From the NCBI GenBank assembly GCA_018780645.1, contig JADMJJ010000024.1, positions 124,001 to 188,000 of the forward strand: a stretch of 64,000 nt of DNA, written 5' to 3'. Positions 40,683 to 51,249 of the stretch are shown here, piece after piece. A program made the translations under genes and the position numbers. Each line of letters starts with the position of its first letter. Positions within the stretch are counted from its first letter, which is position 1. This stretch comes from Burkholderiaceae bacterium. Lineage in GTDB: Bacteria > Pseudomonadota > Gammaproteobacteria > Burkholderiales > Burkholderiaceae_C. Under the pieces are notes generated by a model. The model was given only the letters and a program-made list of their open reading frames with translations. It made no database searches and was not told the DNA's origin.

Positions 40683-41267
40683 TCAGAGACTCGGCCAGAT
40701 GCCGGCTGGTACGTCCAGGCGCAGGTACCAGTCGGACGGCAGCGTGCCGGCCCAGACCAGGTTGTGATGGGGCAGCAGGCGCCGCTTGGCAAAGGTCATG
40801 CGGGCATCGGCGAGGGTCAGCAGGGTGCTTGCCTGCCAGTCCTGATTGGGCGGGCTGGCGGCCACGCCTATGGTGGCGGTCAGCGGGCGCAGGCCCCCTA
40901 GTTGGGCCAGGGCTGAGGCAATGCGGTCACGCAGGCGCTCGGCCAGTTCGGCCGCGGCGGTCAGGCTGGTGTCGGGCAGTATCAGCACGAACTCGTCCGC
41001 ACCGAGGTAAGCGAGGGTGGCGCTGCTGGGTTGCAGCTGCTGCAGCAGCATCGCCAGCTGCGTCAGCACCTGTTCGGCCTGTGCCGGGCCGTGTTCGTCC
41101 TGATAGTCCTTGAAGTGATCGATGTCGAGGGTCAGCAGGGCCAGCGACCGGCCGGACGCGCGCGCGGCCTGGGCGATAGCCTCGAACACCTGCTGCATCG
41201 CCTGGCGGTCCAGGACGCCGGGCAGGGCCCGCAGGTCGGCATGGGCAATAGCGTGTGCAACGGTCAT
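40683..41267 (-). CDS. Small GGDEF-domain protein with altered active-site motif
   Basis: A 194-residue stand-alone GGDEF domain. The metal/substrate block LALLTLDIDHFKDYQDEHGP is intact. The signature motif reads LGADEF where active cyclases have GGDEF, the usual arginine before it is replaced, and no RxxD inhibitory site is seen. It may be a weak cyclase or a c-di-GMP/GTP sensor. Start ATG at 41267 follows a GGGGAG box. Monocistronic; not part of the oxidoreductase operon upstream. Confidence 0.82.
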   Translation of the reverse strand: MTVAHAIAHADLRALPGVLDRQAMQQVFEAIAQAARASGRSLALLTLDIDHFKDYQDEHGPAQAEQVLTQLAMLLQQLQPSSATLAYLGADEFVLILPDTSLTAAAELAERLRDRIASALAQLGGLRPLTATIGVAASPPNQDWQASTLLTLADARMTFAKRRLLPHHNLVWAGTLPSDWYLRLDVPAGIWPSL

Positions 41268-41386
41268 GGGTACTCCCCGGTGGCGATGCCCCATGCTAGC
41301 CAAGGGCCGGGACACCGCTCATGCTCCATAACCCGGGGTGCGTCGCCCCGCCTCTCGGCGACGCCCCGGCCAATCCCGACCGCCTT

Positions 41387-42763
41387 CTAGAGCCGAACAT
41401 CCTCGATGGTGCGTTGCAAGCGGCTGCGCTCGGCGGCAAAGGCCATCAAATGGCTCTCCACAGAGGCATCGATCGGCGAACTCAACAGCGCCGGATTCTG
41501 CTGGCCCACGGCCTGCACCCAGTCACGCACCATCGGGTGATCCCCGCCGCCGTGGGCATCGGTCTTCATGCGCCAAGTGCGGCGCTGGCCGGTCTTGAAT
41601 GTGGTGAGTGTGAAACTTTCCATGTCACCCGTCACGTCGCCCAAGGAACCCATGATGCGCGTGCGCCGACCCTCGTAGGATACGAAAGCCTCCATCGAAA
41701 ACGCCGCCGTGACACCATTGCGAAACAGGATGTTGACGGTCAGGTGGTCGGGCTGGTCGTTGTCCATGCGGTAGACGCAGCGGCCGTAGTCGGTAGTCTT
41801 CAGCGCCTGCAGGATCGTGGCATCCCACAGCGTGCTGTCCTCCGGCAGGTCGAACACGTACAGGCGCTTGCGGTCGCGCAGGTAGATCTGCAGTGCCGAA
41901 TAGGGACACTCGTGCTCGACCGCGCAGCCGTCTGTGCAACGCTCGGTGCTGCCCTCGGGCGCATTCGCGTCGGTGAACCACTTCAGGTTGCCAAAGCAGT
42001 GCACGTTGTCGGCATGGTCGCCCACCAGCCAGCGGATGATGTCGGTATCGTGGCAGCTCTTGGCCAGGATGATGGGCGTGCTGTTCGCGCTGTTGCGCCA
42101 CAGGCCGCGCACGTACGAGTGGCTCATGTGCACGTGCTCGATAGGCTCCAGATGCTGCATGCTGATCAGTTCGCCGATCAGGCCCTTGTCCAGCAGAGCC
42201 TTGAGTTCCCGGAAGTAGGGTGTGTAGCGCAGCACGTGGCACACCCCGACCAGCCGCCCTGTGGCGTGGGCCTTGGCCAGGATCGCGCGGCACTCGGCCT
42301 CGGTCGGCGCGATGGGCTTTTCCAGCAGCACGTCGTAGCCCTGGTCGAGTGCGCGCAGGCACGGTGCGCTGTGCAGCGGATCAGGGGTGGCGATGATGAC
42401 CGCATCGGCCAGCCTTGCGCCCTCGAAAACCTGTTCCCAGCTGTCAAAACAGCGCTCGGGTGCAATGCCATGCAGTCGGGCCAGGCGGTCGCGCCGGTGG
42501 CGGTTCGGGTCGGCCACCGCCACCACCCGCATCTCGGTGGGGTTGCGGGCGGCAAAATTGGCGTAAATGGTGCCGCGGTGGCCTGCGCCGATGAGCACCA
42601 CCGTCACCGGCCGCTCCAGTGGCCGATGCAGCGGGTTGGCGTACAGATCCTCCTGCAGCCCCAGGGTGCGTGCCGTCTCGCTCCAACCGTGGACGACACC
42701 GTCCTTCACCGCGGTCAGCGCCCGGGTCAGCGGGCGAAGTGACATGAACTGTCTCAGTGACAT
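41387..42763 (-). CDS. Gfo/Idh/MocA-family oxidoreductase
   Basis: A 458-residue NAD(P)-dependent sugar/polyol dehydrogenase-like protein. The Rossmann motif is VTVVLIGAGHRGTIYANFA (near residue 53), the catalytic EKP block is VLLEKPIAPTEAEC, and ILAKSCHDTDIIRWL holds the downstream histidine-aspartate pair. An unusual cysteine-bearing insert (RCTDGCAVEHECPYSA) lies between about residues 280 and 300, and the chain is longer than the usual 330-390. It is the third gene of an operon with the fused transferase-phosphatase and the symporter. Substrate is likely a sugar or sugar acid related to that pathway (inference). Confidence 0.88.
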   Translation of the reverse strand: MSLRQFMSLRPLTRALTAVKDGVVHGWSETARTLGLQEDLYANPLHRPLERPVTVVLIGAGHRGTIYANFAARNPTEMRVVAVADPNRHRRDRLARLHGIAPERCFDSWEQVFEGARLADAVIIATPDPLHSAPCLRALDQGYDVLLEKPIAPTEAECRAILAKAHATGRLVGVCHVLRYTPYFRELKALLDKGLIGELISMQHLEPIEHVHMSHSYVRGLWRNSANSTPIILAKSCHDTDIIRWLVGDHADNVHCFGNLKWFTDANAPEGSTERCTDGCAVEHECPYSALQIYLRDRKRLYVFDLPEDSTLWDATILQALKTTDYGRCVYRMDNDQPDHLTVNILFRNGVTAAFSMEAFVSYEGRRTRIMGSLGDVTGDMESFTLTTFKTGQRRTWRMKTDAHGGGDHPMVRDWVQAVGQQNPALLSSPIDASVESHLMAFAAERSRLQRTIEDVRL

Positions 42764-42818
42764 GGCCTCATCGTCCCATCATGGCGCCCCGTGCGGTAGG
42801 CGGCCATGCGCGACCGGC

Positions 42819-44399
42819 TCATCGCACACCCAACCAGGTCGCCAAGCCCGCCATCGCGGCGGCCCAGACCAGCAGCAAAGTGATCGAGCCGCGCTGCTGG
42901 GGCAAGCCACGGCGCAGCACGGCGGCGTCCAGCGTGGTGCCCAGCAACTGCGCCGGATCGGGAGCCGCCATGAAGCGGCTGAGCACCACGGTCACCCCCG
43001 CTGCGACCACCAGGCCACTGATGTTCCACCACATCCAGAACAACGCCGCCCCCAAGTAGGCCGCGAGCACCAGGTTGATGACCAGCCCCGCCGCCACGCC
43101 GACCAGAACCGCGAGCCCGCGCGCACGGCGGTCCAGGATGCCGCAGAGAAAGGCCGCCAGCAGCGGACCGTAGAACAGCGCGCCAATGCGGTTGATGCCT
43201 TCGACCACGCTGCTGGCCAAGCCGCCCACCGAGAGGGCGAAGCCCACCACGACCAAGCCCCAGGCCAGCGTCACCAGCCGCCCGTTGCGCAGGGCACGGG
43301 TCACCCCCATGCGAGGCTCGACAAAGTCGCGCAGCGTGGCCGCCGACAGGCTGTTCAACGCCGAGTCAAGGCTTGACATCGCTGCGGCCAGGATGGCAGC
43401 GACCAGAAGCCCCCGGGTGCCGCTGGGCAGATAGAGCTCGATGAAGCGTGGCACGAGCAGGTCCAGACGATCGGCGGGCACGGCTTCGCGCAGCGCCGGT
43501 TGCTGCATGGCCACGGCGCCGATCGCCAAACCAAGGCCGGCGTAGGCCAGCGTGAGTGGAAAGCGCAGCACGCCATTGAGCACCAGCGCACGCTGCGCGC
43601 CGGGCACGTTGATGGCCGACAAGGTGCGCTGGGCCTGGCTCTGGTCAACGCCGTAGTAGCTGATGTAGAGCACCAGTCCGCCGGCAACAAAGCCCCATAA
43701 CGGCGCCCGCGCGCCATCGCCCACGCCGTGTGCCCATTCGATGGCGGCCAGGCGGGCCGGGTCATGCGCGGCGATGATGGCGGCGCCGCCGCCGGCCATG
43801 TCCCAGGCGATGACGGCGCACAAACCGATGCCACCCAACAGGACGGCCATCTGCACGACGTCGGTCCAGACCACGGCGCGCATGCCGCCCATCGTGTCGT
43901 AGACCACCGTGATGCCCCCCATCAGTACGATGGCCCATGGCAGCGACAGGCCGGTGCTGACCTGCACCACCAAGCCCGCAGCGTACAGGGCCACGCCGGT
44001 GGCCATGCCGCGAGACAGCAGAAACACGACGCTGAGCCACACTCGCGTGCGGCGGTCGAAGCGACGCTCCAGGTATTCATAGACGCTGATCACGCCCAGG
44101 CCGCGCAGCACCGGTACCAGCACCAGCATCACCACGATCATGGCCATGGGCACCATCAGCTCGTACTGCAGCCAGGTCAGTCCACCACCGGGCACCAGGG
44201 CCACATAGGCGGGGATGCCTATGAAGGAGTTGGCCGATGACTGCGTGGCCAGGATCGAAATGGCCAGAGCCCACCAGGGCAGCGTGCGCCCGCCGACGTA
44301 ATAGTCGGCGGCTGTTGTCTGCCGCCGCGCCAGCCAGGCCGAAAGGCCCAGCGTGCCCCCCAGATAGCCCGCGATGACCCACCAGTCCAGGGCCGACAT
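42819..44399 (-). CDS. Sodium:solute symporter (SSS family)
   Basis: A 526-residue inner-membrane symporter with about 13-14 helices. SSS landmarks include DYYVGGRTLPWWALAISILA near the N-terminus, FIGIPAYVAL, and AAILAAAMSSLDSALNSLSA, which carries the sodium-site serines. This family moves sugars, amino acids or organic acids with sodium. Its start overlaps the upstream gene's stop by one base (TGATG), tying it to the GT81/HAD fusion. It probably imports or recovers the operon's substrate or product (inference). Confidence 0.93.
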   Translation of the reverse strand: MSALDWWVIAGYLGGTLGLSAWLARRQTTAADYYVGGRTLPWWALAISILATQSSANSFIGIPAYVALVPGGGLTWLQYELMVPMAMIVVMLVLVPVLRGLGVISVYEYLERRFDRRTRVWLSVVFLLSRGMATGVALYAAGLVVQVSTGLSLPWAIVLMGGITVVYDTMGGMRAVVWTDVVQMAVLLGGIGLCAVIAWDMAGGGAAIIAAHDPARLAAIEWAHGVGDGARAPLWGFVAGGLVLYISYYGVDQSQAQRTLSAINVPGAQRALVLNGVLRFPLTLAYAGLGLAIGAVAMQQPALREAVPADRLDLLVPRFIELYLPSGTRGLLVAAILAAAMSSLDSALNSLSAATLRDFVEPRMGVTRALRNGRLVTLAWGLVVVGFALSVGGLASSVVEGINRIGALFYGPLLAAFLCGILDRRARGLAVLVGVAAGLVINLVLAAYLGAALFWMWWNISGLVVAAGVTVVLSRFMAAPDPAQLLGTTLDAAVLRRGLPQQRGSITLLLVWAAAMAGLATWLGVR

Positions 44400-45967
44400 C
44401 AGGCCGCCGCCTGCTGGGACTGCGGCACATGCACCAGCAATTCGTCGAAGCTGCTGACCACCGTCAGTCCGGGCACCTCGGCAAGGAGCGGCGACTTCGG
44501 CTCGATGGCGAAGGCCCTCTCTGCGCCGCGCAGCATGCCCAGGTCATTGACGTTGTCGCCCACCGCCCAGCACTCGACCACGCGCGGCTCGCTGCGGTCT
44601 TCGCGCAGGCGGCGCAGCACACGGCTCTTGCAGATCGCAGGGCCGGCGTCACCGTTGCGCGGCAGGAACGCCGCATTCAGGCGCAACTGGCCGGAGCAGA
44701 CCTCGGCCTCGAACTGCAGCATATGGGCCAGGGCAAAGTCGGCGAACAGGCGCCGGCGAACGATATCGGCGGCGACGAAGTAGCTGTCGCTCAGCAGACC
44801 GACCATGAAGCCGGCCCGACGCATGCGGTTGACGAACTCAATTGCGCCGGGACGCAGCACAAGCCCATGGGCGACGCGTTCGAAGTCGCGCTGATGCACG
44901 AATTTGAACAGGGCTGCGATGCGCTCGCTGCGCGTGCCCGCGTCGTCGCTGGGGCCGTCGAGCAGGGCCATCAGCTCGGTCTCGCGCCCGGTCGCGCGGG
45001 CCAGTTCGACGGCAAAGCGCGAACCCGTGACCGTGCCATCCATGTCCAGCAGCAGTACCCGTTGACGGCCGCGGCGGCGGGTGAGGATGTAGTCCAGCTC
45101 GGCCTGGGCCTGGCGCTGCGTCTCGTACATGGCGATCACCTGCTCGACATGCAACCGTCCAGCGGCGCGCGCGCGGGCATAGATCACGCGCGAAACTTCA
45201 TTGGCCATCAGGGTCAGGTCGAGCAGCGGCTGGCTGTCGTGTTCAAGCGAACCGATGTCCACCTCGGCAAGCCGCGCTCCGGCGCGCTGGGCGTCCAGCA
45301 GCAGGCCAATGTCCACGCCATATCCGCTCTCGAAGCTGAGCGAGCGCAGCAGGCAGCGACGCGCGGCGATGATGCCCCCCAGCGGCTGCGCGAAGTGCGC
45401 CACCTCCGGGAAGAAGACCTTCAGCATAGGCTTGGCCGTCAACTCAGTGACACGCCCGCCGCCGCGACCGAAGCGGGCCTTCACGAAGTCGGCATCGCCA
45501 CGCAGCAGCGGCCGGCACAGGTCGCTGATGATGCCCGGCCGCAGGCCCGACAAATCACCGTCGAGAAAGACCAGCAACTCCTCCCCCGCCGCGGCTACGC
45601 CGTCGCACATCGAAGCGCCCTTGCCCAGCATCGTGCTGGTGATCACGCGTGCGCCGGCCTCGCGGGCCAGACGGACGGTGTCATCAATCGAACTGTCGTC
45701 GACGACCAACACCTCGGACGTGGCTTCGTCGGCGAGCGCGTAGGCCACCACATCCGCGATACGACGCGCCTCGTTGAGCGCCGGTATCACGACGGTCGCA
45801 TAACGCGACATCGGCAACGACAGGGTTGCCGCCCTATCGGCCGCGCCGATGCGGTTGACGGGCTCGGCTGCGCTTGTCGCACTGCCACGCCGCAGTCCCA
45901 GGCTGGCGCTGACTTTCAACCACCAGGCTCGTAGTCGGCGGACAATCCAACGGGTTGGGGTGTTCAT
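44399..45967 (-). CDS. GT81-like glycosyltransferase fused to HAD phosphatase (candidate glucosyl-3-phosphoglycerate synthase/phosphatase)
   Basis: A 522-residue fusion. Residues ~53-285 are a GT-A transferase: VIPALNEARRI (61-70), the metal motif DGD (136-138), GGGRVTEL (169-176), QPLGG (194-198) and GYGVDIGLL (215-223). The RVTEL/QPLGG/GYGV series is characteristic of GT81 glucosyl-3-phosphoglycerate synthase (GpgS). Residues ~304-505 are an HAD-IB phosphatase: LLDMDGT (306-312, Asp308/Asp310), SDS (393-395), Lys447 and GDNVND (470-475). Together they could make a glycosyl phosphoglycerate and dephosphorylate it in one protein. Start ATG at 45967; an ATG at 46108 opens a non-homologous leader. 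The family assignment is from remembered motifs, the reaction is inference. Confidence 0.82.
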   Translation of the reverse strand: MNTPTRWIVRRLRAWWLKVSASLGLRRGSATSAAEPVNRIGAADRAATLSLPMSRYATVVIPALNEARRIADVVAYALADEATSEVLVVDDSSIDDTVRLAREAGARVITSTMLGKGASMCDGVAAAGEELLVFLDGDLSGLRPGIISDLCRPLLRGDADFVKARFGRGGGRVTELTAKPMLKVFFPEVAHFAQPLGGIIAARRCLLRSLSFESGYGVDIGLLLDAQRAGARLAEVDIGSLEHDSQPLLDLTLMANEVSRVIYARARAAGRLHVEQVIAMYETQRQAQAELDYILTRRRGRQRVLLLDMDGTVTGSRFAVELARATGRETELMALLDGPSDDAGTRSERIAALFKFVHQRDFERVAHGLVLRPGAIEFVNRMRRAGFMVGLLSDSYFVAADIVRRRLFADFALAHMLQFEAEVCSGQLRLNAAFLPRNGDAGPAICKSRVLRRLREDRSEPRVVECWAVGDNVNDLGMLRGAERAFAIEPKSPLLAEVPGLTVVSSFDELLVHVPQSQQAAA

Positions 45968-46097: not shown

Positions 46098-46772
46098 TCA
46101 CCGCCCAAACACCTTCTTCAGGATCGCGCTGCCGGTGCCAACCGGGTCCTGGCGGATCTTGTGCTCCTCTTCAGCGATCATCAGATAGAGGCCGTCCAGC
46201 GCGCGGCGGGTGACGTATTGCTGGACATTGGCGTCCTCATCCTTGACCAGGCCGAACCTGGCGGCCTTGGCGGCGACGGCGTTGTACTTCTCGGCAGCGG
46301 ACACCTTCTGCGTGGCCTTGGTGACGATGGGCAGGAACTTGGCGCTCAGCGGCTGGCGGGTGTTGCGGGCAAAGAAGTCGGTCACCGCGGTGTCGCCGCC
46401 GCGCACGATCAGCAGCGCATCCTTGACCGAGACGTTCCTCACTGTCTGCACCAGCAGGGCCTTGGCCTCGGGGATGGCGGCCTCGGCGGCGCGGTTCATC
46501 GCGGTGATCAGCTCATCGACCCTTTTCTGCTGGCCGGTGGCACGCAAGAGCTTGGCCGCATCGTTCAGTGCACCGGGCAAGCCTATGCGCACCTTTTCGT
46601 TGCCCAGAAAGCCGTCCTGCCTGCCCAGCAGGGCCACGGCAGCAATGGCGCCGCGCTCCAACGCCGCGCGTACTCCGGAGGCGGCATCGCGCTCGGACAG
46701 ATCGGCCGCCCACAACGGCAGGTGAACAAGGCCCAGCGCACTGAATTGGCTGAACTGGCGGCGGCTGATCAT
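46098..46772 (-). CDS. DUF4197 domain protein, exported
   Basis: A 224-residue DUF4197 protein. The N-terminus (MISRRQFSQFSALGLVHLPL) is an export signal with paired arginines. The mature part has family blocks ASGVRAALERGAIAAVALLG, VRIGLPGALNDAAKLL and the C-terminal ALDGLYLMIAEEEHKIR. Function unknown. ATG at 46772 follows an AGGAG box. Divergent from the NADH dehydrogenase gene. Confidence 0.88.
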   Translation of the reverse strand: MISRRQFSQFSALGLVHLPLWAADLSERDAASGVRAALERGAIAAVALLGRQDGFLGNEKVRIGLPGALNDAAKLLRATGQQKRVDELITAMNRAAEAAIPEAKALLVQTVRNVSVKDALLIVRGGDTAVTDFFARNTRQPLSAKFLPIVTKATQKVSAAEKYNAVAAKAARFGLVKDEDANVQQYVTRRALDGLYLMIAEEEHKIRQDPVGTGSAILKKVFGR

Positions 46773-46940
46773 GGGCTTCTCCTGTTGGCTTGACGGCCAT
46801 GATGCCAGCTGTTGCCGACTTGGCATCGGGCCATGTCGGGCGCTCATATCAGGCCGGCAACCGGTCATTTGCCACCCGGGTGGCAGCACTCCCGCACAGA
46901 GTCTGCTTGAATCGGGTGGAACAACAACAGGAGGACTGCA

Positions 46941-48263: not shown

Positions 48264-49219
48264 GCAGCGAGAGCCAGTTCGGCGTCGAAGCTCTGGTACA
48301 GCCTTGCCCGCACCAGGGCCGGATCATTGACCGTGCGCACATCGGCATACACAGCCTCGGCCTCCGGGTAGAGCCGGCGCAGGTAATTCAGCCATTGCTT
48401 GAGCCGGCCGGCGCGGTGGCGGGGCTCGATATGCGTGTCAATCAGGCCCCAGAAATGCTGAATGAGCGGCAGCAGCTGATCCCAGGCCAGCACGCCCGCG
48501 CCGGGCTGCAGAATGCTCAGCGCCAGGCCCGGGTTGACGACCATGCCGCGGCCCAGCATCAGCGGATGGCAGCCCGATTGCTCGCGGCAGCGGGCGGCAT
48601 CCTCGGCGGTCCATATCTCGCCGTTGGCGATGACGGGAATTCTCAAAGTGGCGCGGATCTCGGCGATGCGGTCCCAGTAGGCCGGCGGCTTGTAGCCATC
48701 GGCCTTGGTGCGGGCATGGACCACCAGCTCGTCGGCACCCGCCGCTTCGATCGCCAGCGCGCAATCCATGGTCCGGCTGGTGCAGTGAAAACCGAGCCGC
48801 ATCTTGGCCGACACCGGCATCGGCTGCGGCACGGCCATGCGCACCGCCGAGACGATCTGCTGGATCAGCTCCGGATCGTCCAGCAACGCCGCGCCGCCGC
48901 CATGGCGGTTCACCACCTTGGCTGGACAGCCGAAGTTCAAGTCTATGCCGGCCGGCCCCAGCTCGGCCAGCTTGGCGGCGTTCTCGGCCAGGCAGGCAAT
49001 ATCTGACCCCATCAGCTGCGCCCGCACCGGCACGCCCGAGGGCGTGCGCCCGCCATTTAGCAGCTCGGGCACGATGCGGATGAAGGTGCGATTCGGCAGC
49101 AAGGTGCCGGTGACGCGAATGAACTCCGACACGCAGCGGTCGATGCCGCCCACGCGGGTCAGCACATCGCGCAGCGTGAAGTCGAGCAGGCCTTCCATGG
49201 GGGCGAGCAGTATCGTCAT
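48260..49219 (-). CDS. dusC: tRNA-dihydrouridine(16) synthase DusC
   Basis: A 319-residue FMN-dependent enzyme that reduces U16 in the tRNA D-loop. N-terminus MTILLAPMEGLLDFTLRDVL, catalytic cysteine block IDLNFGCPAKVVNRHGGGAAL, and the FMN-phosphate region IPVIANGEIWTAED mark the DusC subgroup. Its ATG overlaps the stop of the upstream GT41 gene by 4 bases, so the two are coupled. Confidence 0.93.
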   Translation of the reverse strand: MTILLAPMEGLLDFTLRDVLTRVGGIDRCVSEFIRVTGTLLPNRTFIRIVPELLNGGRTPSGVPVRAQLMGSDIACLAENAAKLAELGPAGIDLNFGCPAKVVNRHGGGAALLDDPELIQQIVSAVRMAVPQPMPVSAKMRLGFHCTSRTMDCALAIEAAGADELVVHARTKADGYKPPAYWDRIAEIRATLRIPVIANGEIWTAEDAARCREQSGCHPLMLGRGMVVNPGLALSILQPGAGVLAWDQLLPLIQHFWGLIDTHIEPRHRAGRLKQWLNYLRRLYPEAEAVYADVRTVNDPALVRARLYQSFDAELALAA

Positions 49220-51174
49220 CGCGACTGCCCCTCACACCAGGCGCGCCAGGTGTGGCGCAGCACCGCGTTGAAATGGCCAGCGAAGCGCGGCGCATCGCAC
49301 AGCGGGGATTCCAGCAAGCGATCACGCAGGCCAGCGCGCAGCGCGGCCAGGGCCTGCAGATCGCTGGCATGGGCGACAGCACGGGCCAGATAGTCGTCCT
49401 CGTCGGTCGCCACCCAGTCGGGCAGGCCGAGGTTTTGCAGCAGGCTCTCGCCCTGGCGCGACAGGGCCGCGGCGCCACGCAGGCTCAGCACCGGCACGCC
49501 CATCCACAGGCCCTCGACGCTGGTCGTGCCGCCCGGGTAGGGAAAAGGGTCCAGTGCAATATCGACTCGGTTAAACGCGGCCAGATACTCGGCGCGTGGT
49601 GAGGCGCCCTCCAGCAGCAGGCGCTCAGCGGCGATGCCATGCCGGGCAAAGCGCTCAGGCACGGTGGCCTGCGCGCCGCCCTTCAGCTGCAGCCGGCTTC
49701 CCGGCACCGCCAGCAGCACACGCGCCCACAGCGCGACGACTGCCTCGTTCATCTTCAGCGGCTTGTTGAAACAGCCGAAGGTGATGTGGCCCTGCTTCAG
49801 CGCCGGCAAGGGCCCGACCGCGATGTCCAGGGCCGGTGGCGTGAAGCACAGAAAGGTCTCGGGCAGACGCAGCACCGGCTCGACGAACCGGGCCTCAGCG
49901 CCGGGCGGTGTGATCCAGGGGTCGCCGACAAAGGCGTCCATGGCGGCGAGCCCGGTGCTGGCACAGTAACCCAGCCAGCTCAGTTGAATCGGCGCCGGCT
50001 TCCAGGCAAGCACCGGCAGCCGGTTGTGGGCGGTGTGGCCGGCCAGGTCGATCAGCACGTCGATCGCATCTGCGTGGATCAGCTGCGCCAGCGCTTCGTC
50101 GCTCAGCGCCCGCACACCATGCCAACGCTGGCAGTGGCTGCGGATGGCTATTGACACCGCATCGTCATTCGCGTGATTGGCATAGACGATCAGGTCCACC
50201 TCGCGGCCGAGTTCGGCCAGCACCGACTGCGCGAAATACCCGACCGGATGGTTGCGCAGATCGGCCGACACCAGGCCCACGCGCAGGCGCCGGCGGGCAT
50301 CGGGCTCGCAGTTCCAGCTCGTGAACGGGTGCGCCACCTGCGCCGCCAGCGCGCCGAACTGCCGCGCCTCGTCCAGCGCCCCAGCCTGATCGGGCAGGTA
50401 GTTCAGCATGAACAGCAGATTGCTGCGCGTCTCGAAGTTCAGCGGCTCCAACGCCAGCGCGCGGCGATAGCTGGCCGCAGCCTCGCTGAAGCGACCCAGC
50501 TCCTTGAGCGCAAAGGCCAGGTTGCTATGGAACAGCCCATGGCCGGGCTGCAGCCCGATCGCGCGCTGGTAATGCGGCAGCGCCTCGACGGCACGGCCCA
50601 GCGCCTGCAGGGCATTGGCCAGGCTGCCATGTGCCTCCGCGTGGTCGGGCTGAAGTTGCAGCGCATTGCGATAGCTGGCGGCGGCGGCCTCCTGCTGGCC
50701 CAATTCGGCCAGAGCGATGCCCAGCTTGAAATGGGCTTGAACGAGCCTGGGGTTGTGCTGCAGCACGCGGCGGTAGCTCGCGGCCGCGTCTGTCCAGCGC
50801 CCCTGCAAGGTCAGCACATTGCCCAGATTCAGATGGGCCACGGCAAACCCGGGCTGAAGCGTCAGCGCGCGCTGCAGGCAGGCGGCGGCCTCGTCCAGGC
50901 GGCCCAGGCCGGTCAGGGCCAGGCCGAGATTGCTGGCCAGATCGGCATCGCCGGGCAGCAGCGCCGCGGCCTGCTGCAAGGCTTCGAACGCCGGCTTGTC
51001 CTGAGCCAGCAGGGCCACGCTCAGGCCCTTCCAGACCTCGCCGGCCTGCGGAAAGCGCGCCAGCAGCGCCCGGGCGTGGGCCTCCATTTCGGCAAAGTGC
51101 CGAGCGCTGAACAGATCGAACAGTTGCTTCAGTTCGACATGGGGAACGACGGTAACGGCAGGCGAGGAACTCAT
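49216..51174 (-). CDS. TPR-containing SPINDLY-type (GT41) glycosyltransferase
   Basis: A 652-residue protein. Residues ~15-270 are about seven tetratricopeptide repeats (for example AVAHLNLGNVLTLQGRWTDA and AHFKLGIALAELGQQEAAAA). The C-terminal half is a GT41 O-GlcNAc-transferase-like domain: LRVGLVSADLRNHPVGYFAQ, IDVLIDLAGHTAHNRL, IQLSWLGYCASTGL and DPFPYPGGTTSVEGLWMGVP. Such proteins glycosylate proteins or act in flagellin/adhesin modification; the acceptor is unknown. No strong ribosome binding site precedes ATG 51174. It is coupled to dusC by a 4-base overlap. Confidence 0.9.
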   Translation of the reverse strand: MSSSPAVTVVPHVELKQLFDLFSARHFAEMEAHARALLARFPQAGEVWKGLSVALLAQDKPAFEALQQAAALLPGDADLASNLGLALTGLGRLDEAAACLQRALTLQPGFAVAHLNLGNVLTLQGRWTDAAASYRRVLQHNPRLVQAHFKLGIALAELGQQEAAAASYRNALQLQPDHAEAHGSLANALQALGRAVEALPHYQRAIGLQPGHGLFHSNLAFALKELGRFSEAAASYRRALALEPLNFETRSNLLFMLNYLPDQAGALDEARQFGALAAQVAHPFTSWNCEPDARRRLRVGLVSADLRNHPVGYFAQSVLAELGREVDLIVYANHANDDAVSIAIRSHCQRWHGVRALSDEALAQLIHADAIDVLIDLAGHTAHNRLPVLAWKPAPIQLSWLGYCASTGLAAMDAFVGDPWITPPGAEARFVEPVLRLPETFLCFTPPALDIAVGPLPALKQGHITFGCFNKPLKMNEAVVALWARVLLAVPGSRLQLKGGAQATVPERFARHGIAAERLLLEGASPRAEYLAAFNRVDIALDPFPYPGGTTSVEGLWMGVPVLSLRGAAALSRQGESLLQNLGLPDWVATDEDDYLARAVAHASDLQALAALRAGLRDRLLESPLCDAPRFAGHFNAVLRHTWRAWCEGQSR

Positions 51175-51249
51175 GCGGCGCAGGGATGGCAGGCGCGCAT
51201 TATTGCCCGCCTGCCCTGCACGCACCGCACTGCGGCGAGAGGTAAGCCT

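Follow-up and report, generated by a model that had tools for sequence, protein, structure and literature searches.

A GT81-type glycosyltransferase fused to a HAD-IB-like phosphatase in Burkholderiales: a candidate one-protein route to a hexosylglycerate, often encoded beside ion and solute transporters

Glucosylglycerate is an osmolyte that is made by a synthase together with a separate phosphatase, and the enzyme study on mannosylglucosylglycerate in Rhodopirellula reportedly concerned separate enzymes, too. MgsD of Dehalococcoides mccartyi is a bifunctional mannosylglycerate synthase/phosphatase (PMC8490865). Here we analyse a gene on a stretch of 64,000 nucleotides from a Burkholderiaceae bacterium (assembly GCA_018780645.1, contig JADMJJ010000024.1, positions 124,001 to 188,000; the window) that encodes a GT81-type glycosyltransferase fused to a HAD-IB-like phosphatase (the fusion). 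Like MgsD the fusion joins a predicted synthase and phosphatase in a single chain and would use 3-phosphoglycerate and a nucleotide sugar to form a hexosylglycerate, but the donor of MgsD is GDP-mannose (PMC8490865). The model of mannosyl-3-phosphoglycerate phosphatase, TIGR01486, scores 12.5 bits on the fusion, below its cut-off of 164.75. We take the synthase and the phosphatase of MgsD to be of the GT55 and HAD-IIB types, i.e. of families other than those of the fusion, and infer that MgsD and the GT81-HAD fusions arose separately. Some Marinobacter carry a fused glucosylglycerol-phosphate synthase/phosphatase (PMC10873239), which resembles the fusion as a two-in-one enzyme for a glucosyl osmolyte but yields glucosylglycerol.

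We propose, with a probability of roughly 0.65, that the fusion makes a hexosylglycerate, most probably glucosylglycerate, in a single protein, and that this solute serves under ionic or osmotic stress. The GT81-like half would attach a hexose to the 2-OH of 3-phosphoglycerate, the hexose most likely being glucose donated by a nucleotide sugar. The HAD-IB-like half would then strip off the phosphate to release the osmolyte. Substrates, product, coupling and role are inferred from the two-domain architecture, from the catalytic sites that both halves keep in the window copy, from the predicted folds and from the ion and solute transporters that recur in the neighbourhood.

The transferase half matches the NCBIfam GpgS model with an E-value of 1.5e-54 in a profile search and solved GpgS-type structures with E-values of 6e-30 to 3e-29 in a sequence search; by these sequence scores the match is not due to chance. 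The predicted fold is that of GpgS, and the best matches by both sequence and fold are GT81 rather than GT2 enzymes, in agreement with the earlier note. A GT2 lipid-linked transferase was rejected on profile scores and predicted fold; the Pfam models that match are broad ones such as PF00535. The GpgS-type motifs GGGRVTEL, QPLGG and GYGVDIGLL are present at residues 169-176, 194-198 and 215-223. We mapped GpgS residues onto the fusion ourselves, taking their roles from PMC2581804, and counted them in 67 copies (from the loci described below, L075 omitted). The nucleotide, metal and carboxylate residues Glu54, Lys114, Asp134/136, Val186/Thr187, Leu209 and Met269 of GpgS are identical in all 67, and the Tyr229 position is conserved in 66 (Phe in L079). 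In fusion numbering, E66, K116, D136, D138, R172, V173, T174, L196, D219 and M254 are invariant. The mannosyl-3-phosphoglycerate synthase (MpgS) of Rubrobacter xylanophilus, also a GT81 enzyme (3f1y, 3o3p), shares with the fusion the fold, a TELTAKP stretch and the Gln at the position of GpgS Arg261, but is a chain of 387 residues that matches residues 57-274 of the fusion only. The N-terminal extension has a predicted local distance difference test score (pLDDT) below 50 at residues 24-47 of the predicted structure, and some relatives start later than the ATG of the window copy.

The phosphatase half scores 49.7 bits with the Pfam HAD model PF12710 (cut-off 27) and carries the Asp-x-Asp, Ser, Lys and Asp motifs as DMDGT (308-312), SDS (393-395), Lys447 and GDNVND (470-475). 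Thus, the complete active site that the earlier note had read as HAD-IB is in place, within the HAD superfamily and on a predicted fold that agrees with SerB, a phosphoserine phosphatase, but the HAD-IB model TIGR01488 gives 34.3 bits, below its cut-off of 45, and therefore we call the half HAD-IB-like. It differs from SerB (HAD-IB) itself, whose model TIGR00338 gives 44.3 bits against a cut-off of 144.15, and Arg317 of the fusion faces Glu20 of Methanocaldococcus jannaschii SerB. Both phosphoserine and glucosyl-3-phosphoglycerate are 3-phospho-propanoates, and they differ at C2; a phosphoserine-phosphatase fold would therefore be an obvious starting point for the second step, which favours the pairing. 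The checked HAD residues are intact in 53 of the 67 copies, and among these 53 Arg317 is found in 52 and Arg346 in all; the omitted copy, L075, shows the HAD motifs by eye.

The joined reading frame is not an artefact of the assembly of the window genome, because relatives occur at 67 other loci and in 10 other genomes of the family. A script read the fusion as a single frame in 66 of the 67 other loci and translation did so for L075; the matches in G219 and G062, two of the 10 family genomes, contain one internal TGA each, and two loci match partially (L082 over residues 57-419, L069 over residues 1-461). In a protein search that scored only the candidates with most shared words we found at least 2196 homologues at E<=1e-3; 120 homologues among the matches listed are 67-95% identical to the window fusion, and 22 of these 120 form, with the window protein, our alignment A1 of 23 proteins. 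The locus search returned 69 loci, i.e. the 67 that match both halves, with L082 and L069 partial, and two in Corynebacterium (L089, L090) whose match is confined to the GT part. According to the record titles, Burkholderiales make up most of the hosts (including Rubrivivax, Limnohabitans, Polynucleobacter, Paucibacter, Inhella, Methylibium and Zwartia), joined by three Methylomonas and three Planctomycetes records. The earlier note knew of no described example with this set of genes. The two-domain architecture is not unique, given the 67 further loci, yet we found no description of a GT81-HAD fusion in open-licence papers, mostly seen as titles and the starts of abstracts. Of 399 genomes in the window's family, 11 carry the fusion at E<=1e-40, the window's own included, and neither of the two other genomes of its genus does, a patchy occurrence that fits horizontal spread or repeated loss. 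Spread on plasmids was rejected, no plasmid record covering 80% of the query.

Table 1. Features of the fusion gene and the two genes that follow it (window coordinates).
Feature	Position	Strand	Details
Fused GT81-type glycosyltransferase/HAD-IB-like phosphatase	44399..45967	-	522 amino acids; ATG start at 45967
N-terminal extension	45812..45967	-	residues 1-52; a helix (5-22) followed by a stretch of low confidence; differs among relatives
GT81-like domain	45098..45799	-	residues 57-290
HAD-IB-like phosphatase domain	44423..45067	-	residues 301-515; D308/D310, S393, K447, D471/D475
Sodium/solute symporter (SSS)	42819..44399	-	526 amino acids; TIGR00813, PF00474
Gfo/Idh/MocA oxidoreductase	41387..42763	-	458 amino acids; PF01408, PF22725

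The three frames lie where the earlier note had placed them and their spacing agrees with it, the fusion stop overlapping the SSS gene by 1 base and a gap of 55 bases separating the SSS and Gfo/Idh/MocA genes. No terminator-like site was found between the three genes on their strand; the three minus-strand sites, at 45591, 43551 and 43166, each lie within a gene, and the SSS gene is likely co-transcribed with the fusion. The symporter scores 194.3 bits with TIGR00813 (cut-off 184) and 134.5 bits with PF00474 (cut-off 22.8), its nearest solved structure is 5nv9, a putative sodium:solute symporter, and it probably imports a sodium-coupled solute. The dehydrogenase, with 67.5 bits for PF01408 and 37 bits for PF22725 and no NCBIfam model reaching its cut-off, may oxidise a sugar; at about residues 275-292 we noticed by eye a Cys-rich stretch, RCTDGCAVEHECPYSA. 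A GGDEF diguanylate cyclase gene lies 3' of the operon on the same strand (40683-41315); it and an upstream gene for 263 residues (46098-46889) were rejected as conserved parts, neither having a match in the other 67 loci. Farther away, a frame of 669 residues (49216-51225) appears by eye to encode TPR repeats and a putative O-GlcNAc-transferase-like (GT41) domain.

Neighbours were compared at 68 loci (the 67 and the window), genes within 350 bases of the fusion being taken as adjacent and those within 2.9 kilobases as nearby; representatives were scanned with Pfam and NCBIfam, and the other loci were assigned to representatives by tblastn. SSS is adjacent in 19 loci and ClC in 14, and nearby are ClC (19), Gfo (13), a PF07399 antiporter (6), a PF00999 exchanger (5), NhaD (4), a Na/Pi cotransporter (3) and a GntP-like permease (5; labelled by eye, without a Pfam match). 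The Pfam scans of representatives add VIT1 (L035), a chromate transporter (L070), CNNM (L086) and CorA with Usp (L102), the latter two genes being recognised by eye in L103 as well. Regulator and stress genes are also nearby: MarR in 21 loci, Usp in 7 and a CRP-type regulator in 6. These transporter neighbours, of several unrelated kinds and often adjacent, would tie the fusion to salt or osmotic stress. The order fusion-SSS-Gfo occurs in 12 of the 68 loci, window counted. The earlier interpretation, a one-protein route with its own transport and redox arm, is supported in part. The same order recurs in 11 other loci but is absent from 56; the SSS-Gfo pair is an exchangeable partner set and not the core of the system.

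Some neighbourhoods stand apart. L059, L064 and L069, from two Zwartia and a relative, have an SSS of a different type upstream of the fusion and a MATE-type gene (PF01554 for L059) downstream of it, the SSS match in L069 being split in two pieces. The transporter queries matched nothing in L104 and L105, which come from two other genomes of the family; there, a PEP-mutase-like gene lies beside a 50%-identical fusion (L104:6360-7175, PF13714; L105:10280-11071, by eye from similar sequence). Candidate frames of 734-968 residues in L025, L026, L030, L033, L043, L053, L054, L072 and L078 suggested a ClC-GT81-HAD triple fusion, which was rejected: the frames have no BLASTP match to the ClC proteins of other loci, and tblastn finds a separate ClC gene there, over which the extra part runs as a shadow frame.

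Several findings weigh against the one-protein route to glucosylglycerate. The GpgS equivalog NF010496 is not reached (about 185 bits, 185.1-186.7, for a cut-off of 262). Mycobacterial GpgS (GT81) matches the GT half only and differs in several donor and acceptor contacts: over the 67 copies Ser81 is replaced by Asp91 and Glu232 by Asp219 throughout, Glu212 by Ile199 or Leu/Val/Met, Arg256 by Leu241 (59) or Ile (8), Asn260 by Ser245 (66) or Cys (1), and Arg261 by Gln246 (65) or His (2). Because these replacements run through the family we do not file the fusion as GpgS itself. The metal-side His243 is Asn in six copies. Fourteen of the 67 copies lack one or more of D308, D310, S/T393, K447 and D471, so the same protein does not perform the dephosphorylation in every case. 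On a quick GT-only tree (67 rows; 17 of 64 inner branches starred, 29 open) the HAD-altered state needs at least 10 changes, and the neighbours at least 8 (ClC), 9 (SSS) and 5 (Gfo). Two copies of the fusion occur in each of four assemblies (L030/L051, L026/L066, L050/L056, L027/L062), one HAD site being intact and one altered in three of them and both intact in the fourth. Some altered copies (L082, L069) may be sequencing errors; taken together, the altered copies speak against a universal two-step protein and suggest the GT step as the function that stays constant. The window's genome also has a gene of the trehalose-phosphatase family, so the fusion is not its sole possible osmolyte route; for ectoine, PF06339 had no match, but the control likewise matched nowhere. 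As to the neighbourhood, seven transporter families, picked after the neighbours had been seen, have a member within 2.9 kilobases in 41 of the 68 loci and farther out, up to 10 kilobases, in 8, leaving 27 loci, some on short contigs, with none within 2.9 kilobases. In a family-blind comparison at least six transmembrane segments are predicted in 47 of 126 direct neighbours vs 51 of 402 genes at least four positions away, and 38 loci have such a direct neighbour; Fisher's test gives an odds ratio of 4.1 and a p-value of 5e-9, which is overstated as the loci are related, the gene caller was simple and the threshold was self-set. The recurrence of unrelated transporter families is a stronger point than this p-value.

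The serious rival to glucose as donor is mannose. Here the two-step chemistry would be the same and overlap with our proposal, with the GT81 half using GDP-mannose or both sugars and mannosylglycerate as product. Asp219 corresponds to the Asp of the GDP-mannose enzyme MgS, which makes mannose possible, and the Rubrobacter structure 3o3p was solved with GDP-mannose. However, PLGG also occurs in Mycolicibacterium hassiacum GpgS (7p5l, 7pdo), and the scores are slightly higher for GpgS sequences than for Rubrobacter MpgS (105.6 vs 97.6 bits), so that we regard this alternative as unlikely. More doubtful still is a different acceptor, a related phosphorylated or free carboxylate such as glycerate or phospholactate, the HAD half acting on that product or being a regulatory remnant. 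Such a change would be in line with the replacement of Arg256 and Asn260, which move on ligand binding in GpgS (PMC2581804), with the shorter stretch ahead of GGGRVT, and with HAD residues altered in 14 of 67 copies while GT residues are kept, but all 67 copies share the carboxylate-binding Val-Thr pair and the Arg before it, and the HAD site is kept in 53, nearly always with both arginines. A mainly catabolic or cell-surface operon, in which the symporter would bring in a sugar acid for oxidation by the dehydrogenase and the fusion would modify an intermediate, is very improbable. SSS and Gfo/Idh/MocA do follow the fusion directly in the window and, in the same order, in 11 other loci, but 56 of 68, many with unrelated ion transporters, lack the ordered pair, which therefore cannot define a common function.

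We thus retain the one-protein route to a hexosylglycerate. A broader picture, which we offer tentatively and at somewhat less than even odds, is that this GT81 plus HAD-IB sugar-glycerate pathway came to be shared by Burkholderiales, Methylomonas and Planctomycetes through spreading as the metabolic core of small "ion plus osmolyte" operons whose transporter is freely swapped (ClC, SSS, NhaD, other Na+/H+ antiporters, CorA, VIT1, chromate), and that the phosphatase site was lost again in several lineages and in second copies, the charged phosphorylated solute then being kept as a separate product.

If our proposal is true, the fusion would be a single-chain version built from enzyme families other than those of MgsD, so that the fusion of synthase and phosphatase would have arisen more than once, and it would provide a compact enzyme for producing glucosylglycerate. 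It would also point to an osmolyte in betaproteobacteria, among them Limnohabitans, Polynucleobacter and Rubrivivax, where we found no report of one in the open-licence literature searched, as far as titles and abstract starts reveal. Finally, the association with several kinds of ion transporter would allow ion-coupled solute synthesis to be tested in strains that can be cultured.
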